Virus record (IMG/VR): IMGVR_UViG_3300020395_000105
Location: 1 to 23,951 of that record
Source of the DNA: a virus
Strand: one strand, 5' to 3'
DNA length: 23,951 bases
The notes under the pieces were generated by a model. It had not been told where the DNA came from. It made no database searches and was given only the letters and a program-made list of their open reading frames with translations. The position numbers and the translations under genes were made by a program. The number at the start of each line of letters is the position of its first letter. Within the stretch, counting starts at the first letter, position 1. Below are positions 4,703 through 19,344 of this stretch, piece by piece.

Positions 4703-6157
4703 CTATTTATCAAATAAATTATTACCTATTACCATGGTATTAATTCCCTTCTTAGAGAACATCTCCTTTGCCTCCCAGATCCTAGATGCAATAGGGGATC
4801 CAGAGATGTTTAAGGAAGTATTAAGTATAACAGAATCACCTGTCATCTCTTTATATTTCCTTAAGAGTCTAGCAAAACTATCATCACCATCAACTGTCTG
4901 AATCCTACAAGATCCATCTACATGTGTGACTGATGTGAGTTCTTTATCTAATACGGGTACTGATGTGTTCATGTACGGGGAGTCACCATCGTAATCAAAA
5001 TACTTAGAGGTATCTTCCTTCAGTACAGCAGCACCAAATGGTCTGAATCCTTCTCTATGCTTGACTCTTTCGTTAAGAAACTGCTTGGCCCTGCGGTTCC
5101 TTGCTTGCATCAAAATACTTCTATGCCCTAGAGCACGGGGACCAATCTCACCATGTCCCTGATACCAAGCTACTATCCTACCAAGACTTAAATGTAGTGC
5201 TGCCTTCTCTATAGTCCTATCGTCTGGTTCATCCTCTGGTGCTTCATCATCTTGCCAGAATGGGAACCCTTCATTACTAAATGGTTCTTCATGGAACCTT
5301 CTTCTTAAAAATTCTACTGCTCCTAAGGATAAACCACAGTCATTTGCATGAGGTGGTATCAGGACTTGCTGACCTGTTTTCCTGATCTTACCATTAAAGT
5401 TGCAATTCTGTGCAACACCACCGCTATACCCAATGATGTCATCACCACCAACGGGATGGCTGAGATATAAAGCAAGCTGGTCTCCAGTGTATTCATGAAC
5501 TGTCCTTAACCAATTGATATCAAAGTCTTTATCCCACTTCCTATGCCACGATTTGTAATTCCATATGCCTTTTATGTTAGTAAAACCGTAGTGAGATATT
5601 TTATCATAGTACTCTTTATCTATAAGACCATAGGCAGCAAGTCCCATGACTTTACCTGCTAAATCTAATCCTTGTGGGTCTGCTTTTAGTCCTACCTGTA
5701 TACCTACGTTAGCCATCTCCTTACCGATGGATCCATATTCCTCTGCACTATGAGTCAGTGACACTTTCTCACCCTGTATCAGGGAGAATGAGTGGTCATC
5801 ATTACCAAACCCATCATAAACATAACCAGTATGAGGTACTTCCCCAACTGGCCAGATGCTTAGGTGATGTGCATAGTGGTGGTCTACTGCAAACGTCCTG
5901 CAGGGAAACCCCATCTCTAATTCTCTATATGATTCTCCTTGTTCGAAATTGATATCATCTGTGATGATAGCAATAGCATCTAAATCATCTACCTTGACAC
6001 CCCAAGAGTCTAGGACATCTTCCCATTGCCATATGTTGTCCCATCCATGATGTTTTATACCGTATAACCTTTCCGTTGCACAATACTTAACCTTCTTACC
6101 GTCAGTGTAAGTAACATTGGAATCGTGGTCATCGATTCTCAATCCCAGAAACTTCAT
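4703..6157 (-). CDS. Carbamoyltransferase, NodU/CmcH family
   Basis: The 484 residues match the two-part architecture of O-carbamoyltransferases, which transfer a carbamoyl group from carbamoyl phosphate via carbamoyl-AMP to a hydroxyl of a sugar or other acceptor. The N-terminal Kae1-like domain has a DHHYAHH metal-binding motif near residues 92-98, YDGFGNDD near 114-121 and YSGGVAQNCNFNGKI near 244-258. The C-terminal domain has the family signature GHGEIGPRALGHRS (about 335-348) and FRPFGAAVL. The start overlaps the RegA stop as ATGA. The acceptor is unknown. Such genes recur in T4-like cyanophages; a nucleotide or glycan substrate is possible. In T4 this position, downstream of regA, is held by DNA polymerase gene 43, which is not here. 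Confidence 0.9.
   Translation of the reverse strand: MKFLGLRIDDHDSNVTYTDGKKVKYCATERLYGIKHHGWDNIWQWEDVLDSWGVKVDDLDAIAIITDDINFEQGESYRELEMGFPCRTFAVDHHYAHHLSIWPVGEVPHTGYVYDGFGNDDHSFSLIQGEKVSLTHSAEEYGSIGKEMANVGIQVGLKADPQGLDLAGKVMGLAAYGLIDKEYYDKISHYGFTNIKGIWNYKSWHRKWDKDFDINWLRTVHEYTGDQLALYLSHPVGGDDIIGYSGGVAQNCNFNGKIRKTGQQVLIPPHANDCGLSLGAVEFLRRRFHEEPFSNEGFPFWQDDEAPEDEPDDRTIEKAALHLSLGRIVAWYQGHGEIGPRALGHRSILMQARNRRAKQFLNERVKHREGFRPFGAAVLKEDTSKYFDYDGDSPYMNTSVPVLDKELTSVTHVDGSCRIQTVDGDDSFARLLRKYKEMTGDSVILNTSLNISGSPIASRIWEAKEMFSKKGINTMVIGNNLFDK
4704..4711 (-). promoter_or_regulatory. T4-type late promoter (GATAAATA), leftward
   Basis: The minus strand reads GATAAATA, 25 nt upstream of the leftward start at 4679. 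It lies within the last codons of the carbamoyltransferase gene, whose stop is at 4703. It marks the boundary between the replication block and the small-protein block. Its first base differs from the exact octamer, as at 154. Confidence 0.55.
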
Positions 6158-8417: not shown

Positions 8418-8529
8418 TTAATTTCTCCACTAACTCATCACAACATCGAAAGATGTTTTTATAGTTTTGTTCTTTACCTCGATATACTTTAAAGTATTTC
8501 ATGAGGATAGGTAGGATGTCTTCTTTCAT
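8401..8529 (-). CDS. 42-aa ORF coupled to gp44 and the oxygenase
   Basis: A leftward frame from the ATG at 8529 encodes 42 residues: MKEDILPILMKYFKVYRG, then KEQNYKNIFRCCDELVEKLN and EDTP. Its ATG overlaps the gp44 stop as ATGA, and its 3' end overlaps the oxygenase start by 17 nt. The tight fit between two genes, helical composition and normal codon use support a real gene. The function is unknown. It has no membrane segment and one CC pair. Confidence 0.65.
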   Translation of the reverse strand: MKEDILPILMKYFKVYRGKEQNYKNIFRCCDELVEKLNEDTP

Positions 8530-9467
8530 TTAAACTCGCAACGCATCATTAACTCTGTGAGAAATGCCACAAGATTAATTTCCTGATCCATGACAAAGGT
8601 TGCTTTGTACTGATACTCACCAATAACTAGCACTGCTTCGGGAATAGATTTGGGAAGAAGATATGTATAAAGGTTATCATAGATCTTACGCATGATAACT
8701 TGTGGTTCATTATCTATATTAGATGTGACCCACTTCTTCATCTTAGTAAACTCACGGTCTCTAAGATACCCTATAAGATCACTGACCTTAACATCACTAA
8801 CCTGTGCCAGAATACCTGTATCAATTTTACCTCTAGAAGCATACCTCTGCAACTCATTAAGAGTTCTTCTAAAGTCAGGAAAATGTTTTTGTATTACTTC
8901 TGCAACTACCTTGAGTTCGAACTCTATATTCTCTTGCTCAAGTATAGAATTAATTCTTTTAAGGAATGCACTTGCTAACTGTGCTTTCTCCTTACCTTTG
9001 ATATGAAAATCAACTACAGAACACCTAGAATGTAGAGGTTCTATGATCTTATTTTTATAATTACATGTGAAGATGAACCGACAGTTCTTTTGGAACTCCT
9101 CAATCGACGCACGGAGTAAGAGTTGTACGTCTGGGGTCGTATTATCTGCCTCATCCACAATGATAATCTTGTGACTAGACCCAGATGTAAGAGAAACAGT
9201 ACTAGCAAAGGTCTTTGCCTTATTGCGTACAGTGTCCAAGAATCTACCTTCATCAGACCCATTAATGACATAGAAATCTGCTCCTAATTCTCTACATAAT
9301 GCCTTAGCAATAGTAGTTTTACCGATCCCTGCAGGACCTGACAACAATAGATTAGGGATCTCACCCTGCTCTAAGAATCCTTTAAACATTGCCTTGGATT
9401 CATCAGGCAAGATGCAATCATCCACCTTTTCGGGTCGATATTTCTCGACCCATAAAAAATCATTCAT
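8526..9467 (-). CDS. 44: Clamp loader large subunit gp44 (AAA+ ATPase)
   Basis: The 313-residue protein has WVEKYRP at residues 6-12, as in RFC/gp44 proteins. It has Walker A GPAGIGKT (44-51), Walker B IIIVDEAD (101-108), sensor-like FIFTCNYKN (131-139) and the SRC arginine-finger motif LHSRCS (145-150). T4 gp44 is 319 residues. Four copies with one gp62 use ATP to open the gp45 clamp and place it on primer-template DNA. The downstream order gp62, RegA is T4-like, but gp44 and gp62 are separated by about 1.6 kb holding a small ORF, an oxygenase and a Dam methylase. Confidence 0.96.
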   Translation of the reverse strand: MNDFLWVEKYRPEKVDDCILPDESKAMFKGFLEQGEIPNLLLSGPAGIGKTTIAKALCRELGADFYVINGSDEGRFLDTVRNKAKTFASTVSLTSGSSHKIIIVDEADNTTPDVQLLLRASIEEFQKNCRFIFTCNYKNKIIEPLHSRCSVVDFHIKGKEKAQLASAFLKRINSILEQENIEFELKVVAEVIQKHFPDFRRTLNELQRYASRGKIDTGILAQVSDVKVSDLIGYLRDREFTKMKKWVTSNIDNEPQVIMRKIYDNLYTYLLPKSIPEAVLVIGEYQYKATFVMDQEINLVAFLTELMMRCEFK

Positions 9468-9984: not shown

Positions 9985-10191
9985 CTACCATTGTTTTGGA
10001 TGTGTGACAACATCCCCATGGTCTATATCAACATGACCTTCTACAATTTTTACCTTGTAAACGATCTGTGATTGTTTTTTAGCAAACTTAAGATCAATCC
10101 ATTTCTTGCCCCAGTAGAGACCAAAAAGGCAGATGCAAAATGGTATTGCTTCTGCCCATCCAATGTTGTTCCAAGCGTCAACTGGATTCAT
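9985..10191 (-). CDS. Small single-span membrane protein
   Basis: The 68 residues contain one hydrophobic span (about residues 10-28; AEAIPFCICLFGLYWG) followed by a basic stop-transfer (KKWIDLKFAKKQ) and a soluble tail (VYKVKIVEGHVDIDHGDVVT). The start overlaps the stop of the methylase as ATGA, and it ends 9 nt before the next gene. This supports an operonic small gene. No function can be assigned. Confidence 0.7.
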   Translation of the reverse strand: MNPVDAWNNIGWAEAIPFCICLFGLYWGKKWIDLKFAKKQSQIVYKVKIVEGHVDIDHGDVVTHPKQW

Positions 10192-11093
10192 TTTACATAC
10201 TCCTTGTGTAATTCACACCCAATGTAATGTCTATTGAGTGATTTGGCAACCCTTGCAGTAGTTCCTGATCCCATAAATGGATCAAGAATTATATCACCCT
10301 CTTTACTACCTGCCTTAATGCAAGGTTCGATTAAGTCAGGAGGGTATACAGCGAAGTGAGTCTTCATCTTACTAGGTTTGTTAGTAACAGACCACACACT
10401 ACGCTTATTCTTCTTAGGATAACTCTTAGTCAATCCAGTATGAGGGTTAAGACCAGTACCAGGATTGTGATACTTACCACTCTTCCTGTTTCTAGTACCC
10501 CAATCCTTAGCAGGTTCTTTGATTGCTTCATTATCATAGAAATACTTCTTATTCTTACTGAGTAAGAAAATATATTCATGTGATTTTGTGCAACGATCCC
10601 TTACTGATTCTGGCATGGGGTTTGGTTTGTGCCATATAATGTCTTGACGTAGATACCACCCATCAGCACGGAGAGCAAACGCAAGCATCCAAGGAATACC
10701 GATGAGATCTTTTTCTTTGAGTCCATCTATCTTGTTACCTCTTCTAGGGCAATTGGTTGGGTGGTCTTGATCGCTAGTAGCAAGTGTTTGTCTTGCTAAT
10801 GCTTGACCCTTACCAGGTCTATAGTTGTAATAACTATCACCTATGTTAACCCATAGTGTACCATCGTCAGTTAGAACATCTCTAACTGATCTGAATACTT
10901 CCACCAACTGTTGTATATATTCTTCTGGTGATTGTTCTTGACCTATCTGATTCTCTTCATCCCCATAATTTCTCAGTCCATAGTAAGGAGGTGAGGTTAC
11001 ACACATCCTTACTTTCTCATCGATTGTCTTGAGTGTATCTCGACAATCTCCAACTAACGTGACATCAATACTCACTATCTGGCTCCAATGCAA
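10188..11093 (-). CDS. DNA methyltransferase, beta class (N4-cytosine or N6-adenine)
   Basis: The 301-residue protein has catalytic motif IV TSPPYYGLRNYG near residues 33-44. The SAM-binding motif follows near the C-terminus as DPFMGSGTTARVA (about 272-284), then RHYIGCELHKEYV. Motif IV before motif I defines the beta class. SPPY fits N4-cytosine or N6-adenine methylation. Between them is a variable target-recognition region (about 95-240). The start at 11093 overlaps the gp45 3' end by 29 nt; a GTG at 11075 is an alternative. It differs in class from the Dam-type enzyme 2.4 kb away, so the phage may carry two methylation specificities. No cognate restriction gene is visible. Confidence 0.92.
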   Translation of the reverse strand: MHWSQIVSIDVTLVGDCRDTLKTIDEKVRMCVTSPPYYGLRNYGDEENQIGQEQSPEEYIQQLVEVFRSVRDVLTDDGTLWVNIGDSYYNYRPGKGQALARQTLATSDQDHPTNCPRRGNKIDGLKEKDLIGIPWMLAFALRADGWYLRQDIIWHKPNPMPESVRDRCTKSHEYIFLLSKNKKYFYDNEAIKEPAKDWGTRNRKSGKYHNPGTGLNPHTGLTKSYPKKNKRSVWSVTNKPSKMKTHFAVYPPDLIEPCIKAGSKEGDIILDPFMGSGTTARVAKSLNRHYIGCELHKEYVK

Positions 11094-11766
11094 TGAGGTA
11101 CTCTAATGATGAGACATTATCCTCTGCACTTTTGCTGATTATACCTGTGAACTTGGCAACCTTACACTGGAATATGTCTAACTTATATGCTGTACATAGT
11201 TTATTAGGTCTGATAACAGTTAGGTTCTCAATCTTAAGGCAGAAACAAAAATCCTTTTCGACAGAACCTAACTCTATCTCCAGTGAGTTTGACGCACTAT
11301 TACGCTTATCAGTTACGATAGCAGATAGTTTACCCTTATCACCTGTAAAGCATATGTCTGGCAACTGATAGGTAGATGCAATCCTCTGAATCTGATTAAG
11401 GTCAGATACATCTAACGTAGTTGACACAACTGGATCACCCATGTCCTGTATAGTCTCAGGAGGTTGTGTAACCATACGCTCTTCAGCATAGTAATACTTA
11501 ATAAGACTACGCTTAGATGTGATGTCTACACGTTGCTCTTGGAACTCAACATCCCCATTGTCCAACGTCTTAATACTGTTAATCAGGTTACCTAGATCAT
11601 AGATCGGTGCCTGTTTCTTAAAAGTAAACGCAGGAAAATCTGCAACAGCAAGTATGTTCTTGTTGTTTGAGATCGTGGAGACCTTGTTGCCTGGTTTAAA
11701 CACAATAGATGGATTGATCTCTCTAAAAGAAGTCAATACTTCCATCTCATAATCTGTAAATTTCAT
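11065..11766 (-). CDS. 45: DNA polymerase sliding clamp gp45
   Basis: The 233-residue protein is close to T4 gp45 (228). The N-terminal MKFTDYEMEVLTSFREINPSIVF and the repeated two-domain beta-alpha-beta pattern fit the trimeric clamp family. The NLINSIKTLD segment and TTLDVSDLNQIQRIASTYQLP match the clamp subdomain style. It tethers DNA polymerase gp43 to DNA, and in T4 it is also the mobile activator of late transcription with gp55 and gp33. The ATG at 11766 overlaps the upstream stop (TGATG) and is chosen over a TTG at 11769. Gene 45 is separated from gene 44 by a methylase, a small membrane gene and another ORF. Confidence 0.88.
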   Translation of the reverse strand: MKFTDYEMEVLTSFREINPSIVFKPGNKVSTISNNKNILAVADFPAFTFKKQAPIYDLGNLINSIKTLDNGDVEFQEQRVDITSKRSLIKYYYAEERMVTQPPETIQDMGDPVVSTTLDVSDLNQIQRIASTYQLPDICFTGDKGKLSAIVTDKRNSASNSLEIELGSVEKDFCFCLKIENLTVIRPNKLCTAYKLDIFQCKVAKFTGIISKSAEDNVSSLEYLIALEPDSEY

Positions 11767-12074
11767 CAATAGTTTAACTCCTGAGAGGGGATGTCGTTGA
11801 TTTGCTTGTCGTCAGGATAAGTTGTTCCTGAGAAGTAATATAATAGTATAGCATAGTGGATGATTTTTAGCACGTCCTGCTTATGCTGATTCTTTTTCTT
11901 GTAACGAGATGCATACTTAATGATATTGGATTGACAGAAGTGCTCTGCTGATCCTATTGCCTCAAGGAGGTCTAAAGTCTGCACATCTTTTTCCTCGTTA
12001 GAGTAATGAGATCGGTAGGTAGAAGAAATGTAATCTTGTACCACCTTGATCGTTTCGTCTTCTCTATACTTCAT
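11766..12074 (-). CDS. DUF3310-like small phage protein
   Basis: The 102 residues include DLLEAIGSAEHFCQSNIIKY, then ASRYKKKNQHKQDVLKIIHYAILLYY. This matches the pattern of DUF3310 proteins (aromatic, N/I-K-Y, R-Y-K-K-x-N, D-x-x-K-x-x-x-Y), which many phages encode. They are sometimes called nucleotide kinases without clear proof. It overlaps gp45 as TGATG downstream and the PKHD oxygenase by 4 nt upstream. The function is unknown; a role in nucleotide metabolism is speculative. Confidence 0.75.
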   Translation of the reverse strand: MKYREDETIKVVQDYISSTYRSHYSNEEKDVQTLDLLEAIGSAEHFCQSNIIKYASRYKKKNQHKQDVLKIIHYAILLYYFSGTTYPDDKQINDIPSQELNY

Positions 12075-12628
12075 TGTGAAAATCTTTCTAGTTGAGTGAG
12101 GTAAACATCGTCAGTAACCACATGCGAGAGAGCATCTCTTATGAATGGGTTCTGAACGTTGGACTGGTTCCACCAATGGACTACTTGTCTTGATCCCTTA
12201 GTGACTGGGTGTACTCTGTGTACTATACCAGTTGGGTAGGATACTGCCCACCCCATAGGTAACCTAGTATACACTGAGTAATCACCTAGTTTTAACTCCA
12301 ATTCACCACCCTCATAATCATCATTAAGAAATAGAGTAGTAGAGACATCGAGTCTCTTATCATCGAGGTTAGTGATCTCGTCTGAGTGCCAGTCATAACT
12401 ATCTCCTTCGAGATATTCTTTATAAGTATAACCTGATCTGTAATTGCTGCAAGTGATAATGTCATGATCACTTTCATCAACATAAGAATCAAGCACACCG
12501 TCCCTATGACTGAAACCCCTGATCTCTAAGCAAGATTTGAGGTGGTTCTTGACCACCTCAAAGTCACCTGCAAAGGATTTAATATGATTGATTTGTTTCG
12601 GATGGAGTATCCTGATCTTGTGCAGCAT
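12071..12628 (-). CDS. PKHD-type prolyl-4-hydroxylase-like 2OG-Fe(II) oxygenase
   Basis: The 185-residue protein has the iron-binding HxD of YDWHSDE near residues 76-82. DVSTTLFLNDDYEGGELEL follows, and then the distal histidine in GIVHRVHPVTKGSRQVVHWW with the 2OG-binding arginine in GSRQVV. This is the double-stranded beta-helix of P4H/PKHD oxygenases, common in T4-like cyanophages. The target may be protein or nucleic acid and is unknown. It overlaps the 3' end of the CobS-like gene by 50 nt if the first ATG is used. Confidence 0.92.
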   Translation of the reverse strand: MLHKIRILHPKQINHIKSFAGDFEVVKNHLKSCLEIRGFSHRDGVLDSYVDESDHDIITCSNYRSGYTYKEYLEGDSYDWHSDEITNLDDKRLDVSTTLFLNDDYEGGELELKLGDYSVYTRLPMGWAVSYPTGIVHRVHPVTKGSRQVVHWWNQSNVQNPFIRDALSHVVTDDVYLTQLERFSQ

Positions 12629-13754
12629 AAGGTGTGTCTGATAGGTCTACTTTAGCATCAATCTTGCTATAGAGTTCTAAGAATGACTCTTTAGTCTCAT
12701 CGTCAAAGCGGTTGAGACATACTTTAAGTGCCTTGATGCGATCCTTAAAGATAGCAAATGCACGAATTACATGAACCAGTCTACGAGTTGAGATAACTTC
12801 ATCCACTCCTCCTTCAGCGAAGGTCTTACGGATGATCTCTGCCCATGTAGTAAGATTCTCAGTGTACTCATCGTCACAGCAGTTTAATTCTGAACAATAG
12901 TTGTTGAGGATCTTCTTCTCATAACTTACATTAGGATACTCTTGCTCAAATGTCAAGGGGAATCTTTCTAAGAATGCTTCGTTCAGTACATTAGTACCAA
13001 CGAACCTACCGTCATCGGATCCTTTACCCTTAGTGTTAGCAGTTGCGATAACTGTGAACCCTGCTGCAGGTTTTACATACTTACCAATCTTTTTGAGGAA
13101 TACACCCTTCCCTTCGAGAATAGATTGTAAGCATAGGATCTTGTTAGAGGCGAGGTCAAGTTCATCGAGTAAGAGAACTGCTCCACGTTGGAGTGCTTCG
13201 ATGACAGGACCGTTGTGCCAGACAGTGCTACCGTCCACGAGACGAAAACCGCCAATAAGATCATCTTCATCTGTTTCTACTGTAATGTTTACACGAATAA
13301 GGTCTCTACCTAACTGAGCACATGCTTGCTCTACACCGAAGGTCTTACCATTACCTGATAAACCAGTGATGAATATAGGATAGAAGATCTTTGATTTTAC
13401 AACCTTCTTAAGGTCATTAAATGTACCGAATGGAACATAGTTTGGATCCTTATCAGGTACTAAGTCCTTACCTGCTAGGTATGCAGGATCAAATGAATCA
13501 ACAAGTGCAGTCTTTGGTTGTGTAGATTCTTTATAAGTCTTTTCTAATGCTTCTCTTACTGTGAATGTCCAGTTACCTTTACTTGTTTTCTGAACTAGGT
13601 TGGAACATGATCTAGTAAGTCTTGCATATATGCTAGGAGTCTTTACTCCGAAGTGTTGTGCTGCTTCCGAAACTCTCTTACTTGTAAAGTCACCCTTATC
13701 TGGGGATAGGAAGTTTAGCAGATCGTCATTGCTGAATGTTGATGTGAAAGGCAT
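12579..13754 (-). CDS. cobS: CobS-like AAA+ ATPase (MoxR/CobS family)
   Basis: The 391-residue protein has Walker A TGLSGNGKTF (130-139), Walker B LLLDELD (194-200), sensor I ATANT (237-241) and arginine-finger region FLERF (261-265). This matches CobS, the ATPase subunit of aerobic cobaltochelatase, a common T4-like cyanophage gene. Residues 10-75 form an N-terminal segment that looks like a winged-helix or other small domain (SEAAQHFGVKTPSIYARL). CobS acts with CobT to drive cobalt insertion into hydrogenobyrinate diamide, but cyanobacteria mostly use other cobalamin routes, so the phage substrate may differ. The adjacent upstream gene is a CobT-like partner. A sigma70-like promoter with a palindromic spacer lies directly upstream. 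Confidence 0.9.
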   Translation of the reverse strand: MPFTSTFSNDDLLNFLSPDKGDFTSKRVSEAAQHFGVKTPSIYARLTRSCSNLVQKTSKGNWTFTVREALEKTYKESTQPKTALVDSFDPAYLAGKDLVPDKDPNYVPFGTFNDLKKVVKSKIFYPIFITGLSGNGKTFGVEQACAQLGRDLIRVNITVETDEDDLIGGFRLVDGSTVWHNGPVIEALQRGAVLLLDELDLASNKILCLQSILEGKGVFLKKIGKYVKPAAGFTVIATANTKGKGSDDGRFVGTNVLNEAFLERFPLTFEQEYPNVSYEKKILNNYCSELNCCDDEYTENLTTWAEIIRKTFAEGGVDEVISTRRLVHVIRAFAIFKDRIKALKVCLNRFDDETKESFLELYSKIDAKVDLSDTPYAAQDQDTPSETNQSY

Positions 13755-13778: not shown

Positions 13779-13807
13779 ATGATATAGCCATATGGCTACG
13801 ATATCAA
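13779..13807 (-). promoter_or_regulatory. Sigma70-like promoter for cobS-like gene with palindromic spacer
   Basis: On the minus strand TTGATA (13807-13802) and TATCAT (13784-13779) are separated by exactly 17 bp; each hexamer matches consensus at 5 of 6 bases. The start would lie near 13771, about 18 nt before the ATG at 13754. Fourteen of the 17 spacer bases form the perfect palindrome TAGCCATATGGCTA (13785-13798), which could be an operator. As RNA the same palindrome could form a weak hairpin ending the upstream gene. The promoter has no experimental support. Confidence 0.5.
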
Positions 13808-13832
13808 GGGTTAGTGGACACTAATCTGAGTG

Positions 13833-15992
13833 TCACGCTATCTGTCCTGCGAAGGCAGATAGCAGTCTTCTGTTTGCTCCTTTACCTTTAAGAGACTTCT
13901 TAAAAGCACTGGTTAACTGACGCTTTGTGGCATCTGCAGCAACTTCCATGGTGGTCTCTTCGTTCTTACCATTGGCAATGACATAGAGTTCAGAGTATGC
14001 TGCTGTTTTTATTACAGCAAGTCTGTCTTTCTTCCATTGCTTTTTGTACTCATCTTGCTCCCAGATGCCCATGCGTGACATGTAGGATGAAAACTCTCTT
14101 GGTGGGCATAGTCTGAAACCAAGTACGTTGCACCATGTATATCTGTCTCTAATAACTCTGATTAGAGCAGCAGTCATAGAAGGACCACCATTTCTAATGT
14201 CACTGTAGTATCTTCCAGTCTTCTTATCTCTAAGTATAGATCTGTAATTTAGATGATACTCATACTTTCTATTGATGTATTCACTTTTTGCATGAACCTG
14301 ACCAATTTGTTGTGCTTCACCATCAGTTAGAACAACTAGGTGGCACTTCTCTACACCTTGCTTTGTTTTCCACTTAGGAAGTAGATCTATACAGGTTGAT
14401 AGACCTTCATTAAGTGGAGTACCACCTAGTCCTAAGAAGTGTGGGGGTGCAGGTACTCTTGCATTATCGTAACTCCAGTTGTGGTGTGCATCGAAGTACT
14501 TTGCAACTCTGAATAGATTTCTTGTCTGTCTAGTGAAGTCCTTAGAATTACCTTCACTTGTTAGAAGGTTATACATTCTGAATCTAGGGTCGATCCATAG
14601 GTCATCCACATTTTGATCAGAAGTTTTATCAAGAGCATCTTCATCCCCATAATTGTATCCCCATGAACCCTCATGTAAGAATGCATATACATCAAATGGG
14701 ATGTTAACTTTCTTACAGAACTGAGTTAGGTTGATCAATTGCTTAACAGTATCAAAGATTTCTCTACTCATGGAACCAGACCAGTCTAGTAGGAAGACAA
14801 GACCATGGTTCTTACCCTCAGGTATTGATGTAATCTTCTTAAAGATGTCCTCAGAGAACTTATACTGATGAAGTTTAGTTGTGTCTAGTGTACCAGTCTT
14901 AGACTCAGATGATCTAGCATAAGATGTTGCTGCTTTCTTACACTCAAACTCCTTTACAAGATAGTTAACATCTTTCTGTGTATCCTTTGACCATTGTCTG
15001 TAAAGTTCATCAACCCATTCCATTCTCTCAGGGTAGTCTCTAGTCTCTTCTCTCCAGTGATTTTCTGCTCTTTCCCAGATGGACTTGTTATCCACGATAA
15101 CCTTATCTGCATATACATTAGGTACGTTAACGTATGATGGAACATGTGCTTCTAAGTCTGCAAGATCTTTTGTCTTACTATCGAAAGCATTTTGAGTAGT
15201 AACTTCCATGTACTCCTCCTCAGTCTGTCTTCCATAGTCAGGTAGTTCACCTGCTGCTTGATTCCCACCAAACTCTTGATCTCCATCGCTATCTGAGTTA
15301 CCTTCCTCATCCTCTCCTTCTATCTCTTCTCCCTGTGCATTTGGAGATGGCATTTCCTGACCATTATTATCCATTTTCTCACCTTCACCTTGTCCTGCTT
15401 CCATCTCCAGTGAGAAGTCTGACTGTGACTCACCTTCTTCCTTTTGCTTCTTCTCAAATTCTGCTTTCATAAACTTAAATATATCCTTAGCAACCTGTAA
15501 TGCTTCTTCGAATGTTTCTGTGACCCCTGCAGCGTCTTTTAGAGGGGTCTCAGCAGCAGTAAATGGTACCATTGCATATGAACCAATCTTATAGTGGAGG
15601 TTGATTCTGTCTACAAGTGTCAACTCTGTAAGATCTTTGCCATCTATCTCGAAGAAATCATTATCAGTTAGTTGACTGTATGCTTTATGAAAATCCTTCT
15701 GAAGACCAGGAAACTTACGCTTCATTAACTTCTCGATACGAGCATCCTCTGTCACGTTAATGAAGGACATTGGTACTCCAAGTGTTGCAGGGTCTTCGTT
15801 AGGTGTGTATAGTGCGTGCCCAACCTCATGACCCACGAGCATATTATATACGTCATTGCTTGTCTTCCAGATTGGAAGTGTCAAAACTCTATTCTGAACA
15901 TCAAAGGATGCTGTCTCCACTTTCTTGTGCTCTACAAGAAGGTTCTCTGTGGCGAGGAGTTTTGCAAGGTTTCCTTTGATCTCGATGTTCAT
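13833..15992 (-). CDS. CobT-like VWA protein with HEXXH metallopeptidase-like motif
   Basis: Starting at 15992 (MNIEIKG), the protein has 719 residues. It has an N-terminal domain with HEVGHALYTP (HEXXH at 55-59) and EDARIEKLMKR (82-92), the layout of a zinc site with a downstream acidic ligand. An acidic, low-complexity linker follows (about 186-260, rich in Glu, Gly and Asp). A VWA domain has the MIDAS motif DWSGS (403-407) and VVLTDGEAQQ downstream. CobT of aerobic cobaltochelatase has the acidic linker and VWA domain, which explains the usual cyanophage annotation as CobT or peptidase. Whether the HEXXH site cleaves protein or only shapes the fold is unknown. Together with the downstream CobS-like AAA+ it is an apparent MoxR-VWA pair. 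A longer start at 16025 is possible. Confidence 0.9.
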   Translation of the reverse strand: MNIEIKGNLAKLLATENLLVEHKKVETASFDVQNRVLTLPIWKTSNDVYNMLVGHEVGHALYTPNEDPATLGVPMSFINVTEDARIEKLMKRKFPGLQKDFHKAYSQLTDNDFFEIDGKDLTELTLVDRINLHYKIGSYAMVPFTAAETPLKDAAGVTETFEEALQVAKDIFKFMKAEFEKKQKEEGESQSDFSLEMEAGQGEGEKMDNNGQEMPSPNAQGEEIEGEDEEGNSDSDGDQEFGGNQAAGELPDYGRQTEEEYMEVTTQNAFDSKTKDLADLEAHVPSYVNVPNVYADKVIVDNKSIWERAENHWREETRDYPERMEWVDELYRQWSKDTQKDVNYLVKEFECKKAATSYARSSESKTGTLDTTKLHQYKFSEDIFKKITSIPEGKNHGLVFLLDWSGSMSREIFDTVKQLINLTQFCKKVNIPFDVYAFLHEGSWGYNYGDEDALDKTSDQNVDDLWIDPRFRMYNLLTSEGNSKDFTRQTRNLFRVAKYFDAHHNWSYDNARVPAPPHFLGLGGTPLNEGLSTCIDLLPKWKTKQGVEKCHLVVLTDGEAQQIGQVHAKSEYINRKYEYHLNYRSILRDKKTGRYYSDIRNGGPSMTAALIRVIRDRYTWCNVLGFRLCPPREFSSYMSRMGIWEQDEYKKQWKKDRLAVIKTAAYSELYVIANGKNEETTMEVAADATKRQLTSAFKKSLKGKGANRRLLSAFAGQIA

Positions 15993-16170
15993 TGTATTTG
16001 GTCGTATTCGTTTGTATATACACATTATAATAAGAAACCCTCCGCTTGGGAGGGTTGAGTAGACACTTCTTTAAGTGGCTCCTTCTGGCTTTTGCTTGTC
16101 GCAATGCCTGTGGTTTAAGCTTTCGTTTGGGTGGCTTCCCTGAGTTGTGTTGCCAGTTAGGGGTGTTCAT
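15901..16170 (-). CDS. Possible basic ORF, 89 aa, crossing a terminator and the next gene's start
   Basis: The ATG at 16170 lies 5 nt after the stop of a 54-aa gene, and the first 45 residues are strongly basic (SGKPPKRKLKPQALRQAKAR, then RSHLKKCLLNPPKRRVS). The frame then runs through an intrinsic terminator hairpin at 16036-16056 and overlaps the CobT-like gene by 92 nt, where the composition looks like a shadow. Either a short nucleic-acid-binding protein is encoded, probably from partly terminated transcripts, or the frame is fortuitous. Evidence is weak. Confidence 0.35.
   Translation of the reverse strand: MNTPNWQHNSGKPPKRKLKPQALRQAKARRSHLKKCLLNPPKRRVSYYNVYIQTNTTKYNEHRDQRKPCKTPRHREPSCRAQESGDSIL
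16024..16029 (-). promoter_or_regulatory. Possible -10 element for the CobT-like gene
   Basis: The minus strand reads TATAAT, a perfect sigma70 -10, about 32 nt before the ATG at 15992. There is no recognisable -35 at the right spacing, where the terminator arm lies. It could be a promoter used with an activator, or just part of the AT-rich tail of the terminator. Confidence 0.3.
16036..16056 (-). terminator. Intrinsic terminator upstream of the CobT-like gene
   Basis: On the minus strand AACCCTCC pairs perfectly with GGAGGGTT across a CAAGC loop, followed by TTTCTTATTATAA. The stem is 8 bp and GC-rich. It lies between the gp46-side genes and the CobT-like gene and would end or attenuate leftward transcripts from the gp47/gp46 block. 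Confidence 0.75.
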
Positions 16171-16174
16171 TGTC

Positions 16175-16339
16175 CTAGAAGGATGCTTCTGCTAGTGTAC
16201 CAGTCTCTGCTGCGTCAAATTCCACATAGGTTAACTCATCATTGTAAACCCATCTGATTTTATCCCAGATCCAATAGAAATCATCCTCATCTAGGTCTAA
16301 AAAGAGTGCTCTCTCGTTCCAATAGATGTGATAGGTCAT
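16175..16339 (-). CDS. 54-aa acidic ORF downstream of gp46
   Basis: A leftward ATG at 16339 overlaps the gp46 stop as ATGA and opens a 54-residue frame: MTYHIYWNERALFLDLDEDD, then FYWIWDKIRWVYNDELTYVE and an acidic Ala-rich tail. It is rich in Trp, Tyr, Asp and Glu, soluble, with no membrane segment, and fills the gap to the next ATG. The overlap and composition support a real gene. I do not know its function; acidic Trp/Tyr-rich miniproteins may bind basic partners or nucleases, but that is speculation. Confidence 0.75.
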   Translation of the reverse strand: MTYHIYWNERALFLDLDEDDFYWIWDKIRWVYNDELTYVEFDAAETGTLAEASF

Positions 16340-18054
16340 GCGTCGTCTTGGATTTTAAGGGTGGAAAAGTCAGACTGCTTATCAAATGAGATAATCCGTT
16401 CGAATTTATCCAATAGTATATCACCTTTGTGTGATATGACAAATAGATTAGTATTGAGACCCAATCCCCTTAGTATCTTGAGTAGTTCATCAGTACTACC
16501 TTGGTCTAGGGAGGAATCAAATACCTCATCAAGGATTAGTAAATTTGTACTAACACTGTTTTTCATCTTGGCGATTTCTCTCCAAGTAAAGAGCAATGCT
16601 AGGTCAATTTTCTGCTTCTCACCCTCTGAAAACGATGCATATGAGAAGGAATCCCTGTACCTAGACAGTATATTCTCATTAAAGTTCTCGTCAAGGGTGA
16701 AATTGACGTAGAAGTCCATGCTTTGCAGATATTTATTGATCTTATTGTTTATAACAGGTACAAACTTAGAAACTATCTTCGACTTGATACCATCATCTCT
16801 TAGCAATCCAGACACTACCTTAAGGTTGTCTGCCTGTTTGTTCACGTTGGAACAAAACTTCTCCTTCTCCTCCAATTTCCACTCAAAATGCACTAATTCC
16901 TGCTTTTCTGCTTCTAAATTGGTTGCTTCACTCCCTACTTCGGTCATCAACCTAGTATTCTCCTTTAGAATACGCATCTCTTCCTTGGTTAAAGACTGGA
17001 TTGCATACCTATGGGAGTTAATGACAGCAGCTTTTGCTCTGAGATCCTCCACATCGGTACTTATGCTAGTAATATGCTCACATATCTGTGCATGTGCTAT
17101 ATCTAACTCTTCTACCTTCTCCTTGAGAGAAGTGACCTTACTTTCCTTAAGTTCAGCACCTATATTTTGAGTACATACTGGACATGTATCATTTTTCTGG
17201 AAGAAATCTACGTCTTTATTAGATGCTTTCTTCTTCACGTTGAGTTTGGTCTTCATGACCTTTAACTGTTCGTGCTTATGTACTGCCTTATCAAGTTCTA
17301 AAACCTGTGGAGTGATCTTATCTATCTCCTTTTCCTTATCTTTGATCTCTTTCTTGATCTCTTCTACTCTCTTCTCATTGTCATCAAACGTTTTCATCAT
17401 ATTACCAGTAGTTCTCTGGTCTACCTGCTCTAGGTTGTCTATATTCTTTCTCTGCATCTCAACCTTCTGTTGAGCAATCTCTAATTCATACTCACATTGA
17501 TTCTTTTCGTCTCTTATATCCTTTATCCTCTCCTTAAGGAGACCATTCATGAATGAGAAGATCTGGATGTCCAATATATCTTCGATAACTTCTCGCCTGT
17601 TAGGTGCGGTAAGTTGCATGAAGGGGACAAATGTGGATGAACCAAGTATGACGACTTGGGTAAAACTCTTGTAGTTAAGTTTGAGGACTGATTGCTCCAA
17701 GTATTTCTGTGTATCCTTGACTGCAGCGTCTTGATCAAGGAGTTCATCGTTTCTAAAAATCTGAAATACATTGGGTTTCACTCCTCTAATTACTTTGTAT
17801 TTAATAGTTCCAACTACAAACTCTACCTCTACTCTTAACTCTTTTTCATTAATACTATTAATAAGTTGTGATCTGCTGATCTTTCTAAAAGGTTTATTAA
17901 ACAAAGCAAAGCACAGGGCATCCAACATAGTGGATTTACCTGCACCATTACTCCCTATAATAAGGGTACTCTGTTTTTCACCCAGTGGAATCTCTGTGAA
18001 CTGCTGACCTGTGGACAAGAAGTTCTTCCATCTGATCTTCTCAAATCTAATCAT
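16336..18054 (-). CDS. 46: Recombination endonuclease subunit gp46 (Rad50/SbcC-like ATPase)
   Basis: The 572-residue protein is close to T4 gp46 (560). It has Walker A GSNGAGKST (34-42), a Q-loop-like FTQVVILGSS (131-140), long coiled-coil arms, and the zinc-hook CPVC (291-294) at the turn. A second coiled coil is followed by the ABC signature FSEGEKQKIDLAL and Walker B LLILDEVFD. With gp47 it resects double-strand ends for recombination-dependent replication and helps degrade host DNA. Its start overlaps the end of the 87-aa ORF by 8 nt. Confidence 0.97.
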   Translation of the reverse strand: MIRFEKIRWKNFLSTGQQFTEIPLGEKQSTLIIGSNGAGKSTMLDALCFALFNKPFRKISRSQLINSINEKELRVEVEFVVGTIKYKVIRGVKPNVFQIFRNDELLDQDAAVKDTQKYLEQSVLKLNYKSFTQVVILGSSTFVPFMQLTAPNRREVIEDILDIQIFSFMNGLLKERIKDIRDEKNQCEYELEIAQQKVEMQRKNIDNLEQVDQRTTGNMMKTFDDNEKRVEEIKKEIKDKEKEIDKITPQVLELDKAVHKHEQLKVMKTKLNVKKKASNKDVDFFQKNDTCPVCTQNIGAELKESKVTSLKEKVEELDIAHAQICEHITSISTDVEDLRAKAAVINSHRYAIQSLTKEEMRILKENTRLMTEVGSEATNLEAEKQELVHFEWKLEEKEKFCSNVNKQADNLKVVSGLLRDDGIKSKIVSKFVPVINNKINKYLQSMDFYVNFTLDENFNENILSRYRDSFSYASFSEGEKQKIDLALLFTWREIAKMKNSVSTNLLILDEVFDSSLDQGSTDELLKILRGLGLNTNLFVISHKGDILLDKFERIISFDKQSDFSTLKIQDDA

Positions 18055-18310
18055 GCAATGAAGGAGGGAATACTATATGATCTGGTTGGATGACCGTATA
18101 GTGGTATCCAAACTGATTGCAGTTTTCTTTGACCTGATCCTCTTCTATCTCCATGAGACGAAGATCTCTACTGTACCCATCAGCAACCAAGTGCTGATGA
18201 TAACGTTCAGCATCATCAGGGTGCTCAAAAATTTGGACTACTCTCTCTTTGAGAGTCTCATCTTTGATAGCATACACCCCTCCACTTCTTTTGTCAACTA
18301 GAACGTACAT
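18047..18310 (-). CDS. 87-aa conserved ORF between gp47 and gp46
   Basis: The protein begins MYVLVDKRSGGVYAIKDET and has a mixed alpha/beta pattern with VVQIFEHPDDAERYHQHLVADG, then DLRLMEIEEDQVKENCNQFGYHYTVI. It is small, soluble and acidic, with no recognised catalytic motif. Its ATG overlaps the gp47 stop by one base and its stop overlaps gp46, so it is translated between the two nuclease subunits. This position is typical of small hypothetical genes in T4-like cyanophages. The function is unknown. Confidence 0.75.
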   Translation of the reverse strand: MYVLVDKRSGGVYAIKDETLKERVVQIFEHPDDAERYHQHLVADGYSRDLRLMEIEEDQVKENCNQFGYHYTVIQPDHIVFPPSLHD

Positions 18311-19344
18311 TAAATCCTTTGTGCCTCTACATATAATGATTTAAGGATCCCAAAAATCTCATCCTTGTTATCAATTTCGCTAACACATTTCTGCAATATC
18401 GTTAATGTATCTTCTGCCTCAATAGAATCATCAACATCTTCTAAATGTAAGAACTGATCTTCTATGATTTTTAAGTCAGCAATATTGGCATCATTGATCT
18501 GCTTTAAAGTCTTGTCAAACAAGACCCTATCTTCTTTCTTCTCAACAATTAGCTTAACATAGCTACCCTTAAGGGTGTCATATTGTATATCAGAAGTCTC
18601 ATCATCCTTGTAAATGATCTTGTGAAACATTTTGTTAGGATTCTTATGAAAACTTAGCCTCTTTGTTTTAGTATTTAGTGTATGGAACCCACGTTCCTGA
18701 CCGTAATCATTCCAATAGAGTTGGTACGGGTTGCCAAGGTATCTAATGTTACCCTTGGTACTCCTCATATGGAAGTGCCCAGTGCATACCATCTCAAACT
18801 TGTCAAAAATGGCAGGATCCTGTCCGTGCTCCATGGTGTGTCCAGGAACAGCCTCAAAACCATTAAGCTCAAGATGCCCAAAACAGACGCTTGCATTACT
18901 AGCAGCGATACTTCGAAAGGATTCTTTACGGTTATCATCACATATCCAAGGAAGAAGAAGTATATCGAGACCGTCAATATTAAGTTCAGTCGGATCAGAT
19001 ATAACGGTGATATTATCGTACTCAGCAAGTAATAATTCTGGTGAGTTGACTCTAAGAGTATTTTTATAATAGATGTCATGGTTACCTACCATCATGTATT
19101 GCTTGACACCTCTCTCCAAGAGAGGATCAAACCACATTTCTTTAGCAGCATCTAGGGAATAGAAATTGACATACTTCCTTCTATCGAATGTGTCTCCTAG
19201 ATTGATGATCGTATGGATCTTATGCTTATCAATAAAAGGAAGGACAGTATCCCGATAAAAGGATTTGTATTTGTCTATGTAAAATTGGTTATCATTCCTG
19301 ACCCCGAAATGCTGATCAGTTATCAGTAGAATTTTGGATGTCAT
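18310..19344 (-). CDS. 47: Recombination endonuclease subunit gp47 (Mre11/SbcD-like)
   Basis: The 344-residue protein (T4 gp47: 339) has all five calcineurin-like phosphoesterase motifs: DQHFG (10-14), GDTFDRR (47-53), GNHD near residue 92, FGHLE and CTGHFHMRS. These bind two Mn ions. It is the nuclease partner of gp46. The start is overlapped by the 3' end of a 53-aa ORF. Confidence 0.97.
   Translation of the reverse strand: MTSKILLITDQHFGVRNDNQFYIDKYKSFYRDTVLPFIDKHKIHTIINLGDTFDRRKYVNFYSLDAAKEMWFDPLLERGVKQYMMVGNHDIYYKNTLRVNSPELLLAEYDNITVISDPTELNIDGLDILLLPWICDDNRKESFRSIAASNASVCFGHLELNGFEAVPGHTMEHGQDPAIFDKFEMVCTGHFHMRSTKGNIRYLGNPYQLYWNDYGQERGFHTLNTKTKRLSFHKNPNKMFHKIIYKDDETSDIQYDTLKGSYVKLIVEKKEDRVLFDKTLKQINDANIADLKIIEDQFLHLEDVDDSIEAEDTLTILQKCVSEIDNKDEIFGILKSLYVEAQRI

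Follow-up and report, generated by a model that had tools for sequence, protein, structure and literature searches.

A CobT-like VWA protein with a putative N-terminal metallopeptidase domain and its MoxR-type ATPase partner in T4-like cyanophages

The T-S gene pair

The virus record IMGVR_UViG_3300020395_000105, analysed here over its full length of 23,951 bases (the window), is, judged by its sequence, a fragment of a T4-like cyanophage. Two neighbouring genes on its minus strand, separated by a gap of 78 bases, are the subject of this work: T, which encodes a CobT-like VWA protein, and S, which encodes a CobS-like ATPase. T joins an N-terminal HEXXH domain to an acidic linker and a VWA region with a metal-ion-dependent adhesion site (MIDAS), laid out as follows (pLDDT, predicted local distance difference test):

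13833..15992, minus strand: T, CobT-like VWA protein of 719 residues with an N-terminal HEXXH domain; PHROG 459 'peptidase'
15816..15830, minus strand: HEVGH, T residues 55-59; putative zinc ligands H55 and H59, putative general base E56
15732..15749, minus strand: EDARIE, T residues 82-87; candidate third ligand E82 or D83
15228..15422, minus strand: acidic linker, T residues 191-255, 20 of 65 being D or E; pLDDT below 50 at 193-253
13836..15140, minus strand: VWA region, T residues 285-719; best VIA-align matches NorD VWA and midasin MIDAS
14772..14786, minus strand: MIDAS DWSGS, T residues 403-407
14418-14420, minus strand: MIDAS T525
14322-14324, minus strand: MIDAS D557
12579..13754, minus strand: S, CobS-like MoxR-type AAA+ ATPase of 391 residues, downstream of T; PHROG 249 'porphyrin biosynthesis'

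The MIDAS of T is complete (DxSxS-T-D), and the protein matches PHROG 459 over its full length (residues 2-719, expectation value (E) 1.2e-246). A first-pass annotation of this DNA had placed HEVGH at 55-59 and EDARIE at 82-87 and named an acidic linker and a MIDAS DWSGS; translation of 13833-15992 on the minus strand reproduces all of these, with DWSGS at 403. Its span for the pair, 13779-15992, needs correction: the CobT-like open reading frame (ORF) ends at 13833, 54 bases short of the lower coordinate, and the CobS-like gene falls outside. The 'E86' named there as a possible ligand is an isoleucine, the second glutamate of EDARIE being E87.

S carries Walker A (GLSGNGKT), Walker B (LLLDELD), ATAN, FLERF and STRR motifs. 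Across 90 full-length S proteins, Walker A, ATAN and the ERF-type arginine finger are present in all 90, Walker B in 89 and sensor 2 in 88. The earlier description of the CobS-like partner as a full MoxR-type AAA+ protein, with Walker motifs, sensors and arginine finger intact, thus holds, as does that of a MoxR AAA+ and VWA pair, an intact AAA+ gene lying beside a VWA gene with a complete MIDAS.

The two genes are also found together elsewhere. In 107 of 126 fetched loci S follows T on the same strand, at a spacing of -202 to 4023 bases; in the other 19, which lack S, the available sequence ends within 1244 bases. Record counts for T and S are equal in cyanophages (365 for Synechococcus, 61 for Cyanophage and 24 for Prochlorococcus), and in Gordonia and Rhodococcus phages the ATPase gene stands upstream of T instead. 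The nearest named relative found, cyanophage P-RSM6, is 66.2% identical in T and 92.3% in S. S-like ATPases occur in many non-cyanophage phages as well (762 records). In one of these, Staphylococcus phage A3R, the one neighbour translated, P0006, was not counted as a T: it has HEAFH at 401 but no DxSGS. No gene annotated CobS or CobT was present in the 100 kb read of the 143.9 kb of Halovirus HGTV-1. A search with CbbQ_C for NorQ/CbbQ neighbours gave hits in one of 31 genomes, at two places that are, by position, CobS-CobT and phage S-T.

Conservation of the HEXXH site

The T sample was drawn from viral loci, contigs of public genome assemblies and a few named phages; it is redundant, and includes the window and a near-identical locus (L001). 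The assembly search returned 146 pattern hits, 130 of them not relatives. A T profile matched 127 ORFs, of which 123 reach the N-terminus, and HEXXH, counted as the first such motif in each ORF, is present in every one of the 123. It reads HEVGH in 114, HEVAH and HEVSH in two each, and HECAH, HECGH, HESAH, HEISH and HECSH in one each.

In an alignment of 67 sequences, reaching down to 28% identity to the window T, H55, E56, H59, N79, E82, D83 and R85 are invariant by position, and the MIDAS residues D403, S405, S407, T525 and D557 are likewise kept without exception. Residues 1-150 contain 23 invariant positions, and the random chance that these would include all of H55, E56, H59 and E82 is 4e-4. 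Conservation across close phage relatives had been chosen beforehand as the check on this site, and there it is complete (123/123, positionally invariant in the 67), with losses in some distant relatives (3/15). E82 and D83, C-terminal to HEXXH and both invariant in the 67 sequences, are alternative candidates for a third metal ligand. T-bearing contigs (L113-L128) also turned up in public assemblies whose titles name many bacterial groups and one archaeon; these are probably phage contigs binned with their hosts.

T proteins of other phages and plasmids

Beyond the cyanophages we compared 15 T proteins from phage and plasmid records, hand-picked from two lists; two of them, from Pelagibacter phage Mosig and Ochrobactrum phage OC, also belong to the set of 123, and Pseudoalteromonas phage XG4 is not counted among the T proteins. 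HEXXH is kept in 12 of the 15: Salmonella phage SSU5, Escherichia phage Cyrano, Rhizobium phages RHEph10 and B1VFA, Vibrio phage ICP2, Gordonia phages Damp and GMA7, Rhodococcus phage ReqiDocB7, Bacteroides phage BS162P1, Pelagibacter phages HTVC008M and Mosig, and Ochrobactrum phage OC. The second motif, taken as [EV]D followed by R or I, has E-D in 11 of these and V-D in ICP2, which makes D83, like E82, a possible third ligand. The aspartate is the more widely held acid, with VD in ICP2 and AD and TD in two DUF2201_N proteins (see below). In the three Gordonia and Rhodococcus proteins the E-D comes 70-77 residues later, and we can only guess that it is the equivalent stretch.

Profile alignment with hhalign joined the cyanophage and SSU5-type N-termini at 97%, pairing HEVGH with HEVAH and the EDARIEK stretch with EDVFIER. 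Searched against plasmids, the window T had no match at E up to 0.01. Relatives of the CobT-like protein of Pseudomonas phage nickie, another of the 15, were found in 969 plasmid records, mostly from Klebsiella, Escherichia and Acinetobacter, with 115 covering at least 80% of the query; in the one plasmid that was read (Acinetobacter, L157), the gene next to T encodes a MoxR family ATPase.

Predicted structure

A structure model of T built from 67 sequences replaced an 18-sequence model with a poor N-terminus. Its mean pLDDT is 78.4, and most ten-residue blocks of the first 180 residues score 80-93. HEXXH is predicted to lie on a helix spanning residues 46-62 and E82 on one spanning 75-93, both modelled at good confidence. 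When known structures are compared by VIA-align, the best matches to the VWA region of T are NorD in NorQD complexes (Z 15.6, root-mean-square deviation (rmsd) 7.7, 255 residues aligned) and the MIDAS domain of midasin (Z 15.0, rmsd 3.1, 217 aligned). By Foldseek E-value the top PDB match is a pilus adhesin, with NorD second; we judged the PDB matches whose titles could be placed to be VWA-type or VWA-bearing, and these lists are uninformative on the N-terminus. The Pfam VWA model reaches 19.1 bits on T, under its 23.8-bit cut-off, and at E up to 1 neither T itself nor its profile matched the sequence of any solved structure. VWA proteins of haloarchaeal viruses appeared only as Foldseek matches with low template-modelling scores.

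A proposed function for T and S

In summary of the observations, the AAA+, MIDAS and HEXXH/acid motifs are intact and conserved together, and the pairing of T with S is constant. We propose that T and S work together as an ATP-driven MoxR-VWA machine, with a putative zincin-type metallopeptidase domain at the N-terminus of the VWA subunit acting on a client, and we give this proposal a probability of roughly 0.6.

The analogy is with NorQD, in which a finger of the VWA domain reaches into the AAA+ pore and the proposed motion is a twisting of this domain, driven by ATP hydrolysis, relative to the N-terminal domain (extracts of PMC13036017 and PMC9976466). NorQ and NorD resemble our pair in joining a MoxR hexamer to a VWA partner, and a NorQD-like mechanism is suggested for T and S because T shares the layout of N-terminal domain, disordered linker and VWA domain; NorD differs in serving iron insertion. 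By this analogy, an S hexamer would hold the VWA domain of T in its pore while the MIDAS of T binds an acidic spot on the client. ATP hydrolysis might then turn the VWA domain against the N-terminal domain, stretching the linker, and the client would be either remodelled or brought to the HEXXH site for cutting. We infer zinc binding, peptide cleavage, NorQD-like motion and a client belonging to the replication or transcription phase rather than to the virion.

Several observations weigh against this proposal. Three of the 15 phage and plasmid T proteins have lost both histidines, with SEISK in Pseudomonas phage nickie, QEVAK in an Acinetobacter plasmid and REVST in Stenotrophomonas phage BUCTxx99; the machine can thus be retained where the site is gone. 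No zincin is found in the fold-search lists, which mainly cover residues 330-719 and barely touch the N-terminus, and no Pfam peptidase model is above cut-off on the T family: DUF2201_N reaches E 0.0031 in one of 67 members and MPTase-PolyVal E 0.075 in one of ten, both below cut-off. With hhalign, T aligns only weakly to two DUF2201_N proteins (9.8%). PHROG 5298 'cobalamin biosynthesis protein' is a further, weaker hit of T (E 4.5e-9, residues 80-454), many neighbours of T are unnamed, and the head genes of P-RSM6, including the major head gene, begin about 10 kb from T. On balance, we consider the PHROG name 'peptidase' better supported than the published remark that calls this name a mistake.

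Relation to bacterial CobT and cobaltochelatase

A published proposal casts viral CobST as the motor of a cobaltochelatase, acting together with host CobN to raise cobalamin for nucleotide synthesis (extract of PMC8651126), a role that we consider unlikely for T and S. Several of our results are in its favour. The SSU5 T protein has strong CobT matches in Pfam (129.6 bits to PF06213 CobT and 374.4 to PF11775 CobT_C, as compared with 282.4 and 330.9 for a bacterial CobT), and to these can be added the PHROG 5298 match of T and the weak similarity of S to the CobS equivalog model (TIGR01650 PD_CobS), which at 71.5 bits does not pass the cut-off of 558.55. CobN is above cut-off in 19 of 59 cyanobacterial genomes, including the Prochlorococcus assembly G002, which holds a T-bearing contig. 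The window T, however, matches neither PF06213 nor PF11775 at E up to 0.1. PF06213 is found in none of 98 genomes of the cyanobacteria, the phylum of G002, and the T profile matches one of them, through the T-bearing contig of G002.

The HEXXH site separates T further from the chelatase subunit. PF06213 was present in 41 of 58 genomes from the class of a Rhodobacteraceae bin (G001), and in none of these 41 CobT proteins, all of them read and all from this one class, is there an HEXXH motif. A HEPAH upstream of one of them (L150) was cut off, lying about 470 residues before DNSGS and far upstream of the likely start, and a short fragment (L146) was dropped from the set. In two joint alignments, with 21 and 20 CobT proteins, the columns of SSU5 H77, E78 and H81 have the matching residue in 0, 0 and 0 proteins of the first and 0, 0 and 1 of the second. 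The glutamate of the second motif is present in 20 of the 21 and 18 of the 20 (38/41). These alignments are bridged by the SSU5-type N-termini, which hhalign joins to bacterial CobT at 88%; we preferred them to a direct alignment of cyanophage T with CobT, which sets H59 against a different CobT histidine (21%, 4%). As the first-pass annotation had supposed, a cobaltochelatase does not account for HEXXH.

Salmonella and Escherichia use the early-cobalt pathway or have no de novo corrin synthesis, and an HEXXH-bearing T beside a CobS-like gene in phages named for these hosts (SSU5 and Cyrano) is a poor fit with a chelatase. T and S are therefore probably not a cobaltochelatase. CobS and CobT resemble them in being an AAA+ and VWA pair, in an N-terminal domain homologous through the SSU5-type proteins and in the conserved E of EQARxE, and differ in that CobT of the 41 genomes lacks HEXXH and that the window T and S fall under the CobT and CobS cut-offs. 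Bacterial CobT looks, from these alignments, like a relative without the HEXXH site. In an unrooted tree with three long branches and eight open forks, which includes the columns of the label itself, the intact or lost label changes twice; this tree is the basis for any inferred direction of change, such as a possible loss of the site in CobT. Among our controls, Caulobacter vibrioides matches CobT and is not one of those matching the CobN model TIGR02257, and is possibly a case of bacterial CobT without CobN.

Possible remodelling without cleavage

The N-terminal domain could also be a metal-binding substrate module or a pseudo-peptidase, with T and S remodelling or metallating a client without cutting it, much as NorQD inserts iron into nitric oxide reductase by remodelling (extracts of PMC13036017 and PMC9976466). 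The likeness of the T VWA region to NorD and midasin fits this possibility, as does the lack of the histidines in bacterial CobT and in three phage and plasmid T proteins. We nevertheless think it improbable: E56, at the position of the catalytic base, is as invariant as both histidines in the 67-sequence alignment, which we count for a peptidase because a purely structural metal site would not need this glutamate.

A peptidase domain also has a possible counterpart in bacterial proteins that combine DUF2201_N with a VWA-like domain (PF13203, 'putative metallopeptidase domain'). Two full members (L174 and L175) have, like T, HEXXH and DxSGS, with a W-N-x-x-x-D after the HEXXH that can be compared with LWNALED of SSU5. 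Their sequence link to cyanophage T is weak, and unlike T they have no E directly before the D.

Gene neighbourhood and expression

In the window, T and S sit between gp46 and gp45, within a run of genes matching T4-like proteins:

18310-19344: gp47 homologue, match to a T4-like replication/recombination protein
16336-18054: gp46 homologue, match to a T4-like replication/recombination protein
16036..16056, minus strand: terminator-like hairpin, directly upstream of T, between gp46 and T
11065-11769: sliding clamp (gp45), T4-like protein match
8526-9467: clamp loader (gp44), T4-like protein match

The order of T, S and the gp47, gp46, gp45 and gp44 homologues is the same in P-RSM6, which also carries the hairpin stretch upstream of T, and T may be the first gene of its own transcription unit. 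We surveyed the fetched flanks (2.5 to 6 kb) of the 15 phage and plasmid T loci. Replication or recombination genes are present in ten: Mosig, HTVC008M, OC, nickie, SSU5, Cyrano, RHEph10, B1VFA (RepC), ICP2 and BUCTxx99 (recombinase). The flanks of the Acinetobacter plasmid T hold an integrase and a sigma factor, those of Damp, GMA7 and ReqiDocB7 the ATPase and otherwise unnamed genes, and those of BS162P1 a homing-type endonuclease besides unnamed genes. In none of the 15 is a virion structural gene annotated.

We also searched for NATAAATA, which we take to be the T4-type late-promoter motif. It is absent from the 120 bases before the estimated T start in all of 114 loci, which are related to one another, and lies at -204 in three. 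In P-RSM6 it stands before 10 of 32 gene starts in the structural region, 1 of 21 in the replication cluster and 1 of 11 other non-structural ones (hsp20). Gene context, the missing late motif and the hairpin weakly favour early or middle expression of T. A literature search did not find the expression class of T or S; cobS of S-SSM5 is reported as expressed, with no class given in the part of the source available.

These data bear on a virion role, which the first-pass annotation had allowed for in suggesting that the pair might cut a virion protein. Group 2.2 jumbo phages encode a MoxR ATPase and a vWA protein fused to an N-terminal metallopeptidase, for which a part in virion assembly is proposed with reference to a MoxR-vWA pair in archaeal virus tail assembly (extract of PMC7824862). 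This pair has the architecture of T and S; it differs in its proposed role and in that the names CobS and CobT are absent from the main text of that paper. Compared by description only, the two are likely the same family. That the T domain likewise processes virion structural proteins during assembly, for which the head genes some 10 kb away in P-RSM6 might also speak, is also doubtful. The neighbours of the pair are gp47, gp46, gp45 and gp44 in the window, several unrelated phages likewise have replication genes close to it, P-RSM6 has a separate gene for its head protease gp21, and the absent late motif, no more than suggestive among related loci, is a mild argument against virion maturation. 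Cutting of a virion protein is thus mildly disfavoured by gene context and the missing motif.

Implications

The MoxR-vWA-metallopeptidase architecture is already known, to which T and S add a new member, and the point of interest is the re-reading of a familiar gene name, cobS/cobT; among the papers listed in the literature searches made, none was seen to link CobT with zincins. The gene cobS belongs to a 25-gene core common to 16 cyanophage genomes (extract of PMC3037559), and ecological work lists it as a vitamin B12 synthesis gene while noting that its function in phage is unknown (extract of PMC9983427). If T and S are a protease motor, the B12 accounting of cyanophage cobS would be wrong, two conflicting published readings could be decided between, a gene pair of abundant ocean viruses would be opened to experiment, and an origin would be suggested for the N-terminal domain of cobaltochelatase CobT. 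At somewhat less than even odds, we would go further and suggest that phage 'CobST' mostly does not belong to B12 metabolism. It would then be a widespread ATP-driven zinc protease of the replication and transcription module, belonging to the core genes of marine T4-like cyanophages and occurring also in phages and phage-plasmids whose hosts are unrelated, with CobT an offshoot whose peptidase site is dead.

Other genes near T and S

Upstream of T, a peptide deformylase gene is the immediate neighbour in Ochrobactrum phage OC (positions 4217-4711 of L031) and stands two genes further away in Pelagibacter phage Mosig (3554-4108 of L030), which might hint at protein N-terminal processing. In the window, a 2-oxoglutarate (2OG)-Fe(II) oxygenase gene (12071-12628) overlaps the end of S by 50 bases, and Mosig also has several 2OG oxygenases near T. 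The replication cluster of the window includes a Nol-like carbamoyltransferase (4703-6157) and an N6/N4 DNA methylase (10188-11093), and genes so annotated are found at the corresponding places in P-RSM6. A further stretch of P-RSM6 (NC_020855, 145617-162229) holds a 2OG-Fe(II) oxygenase cluster with three endonuclease V genes and two tryptophan halogenases.

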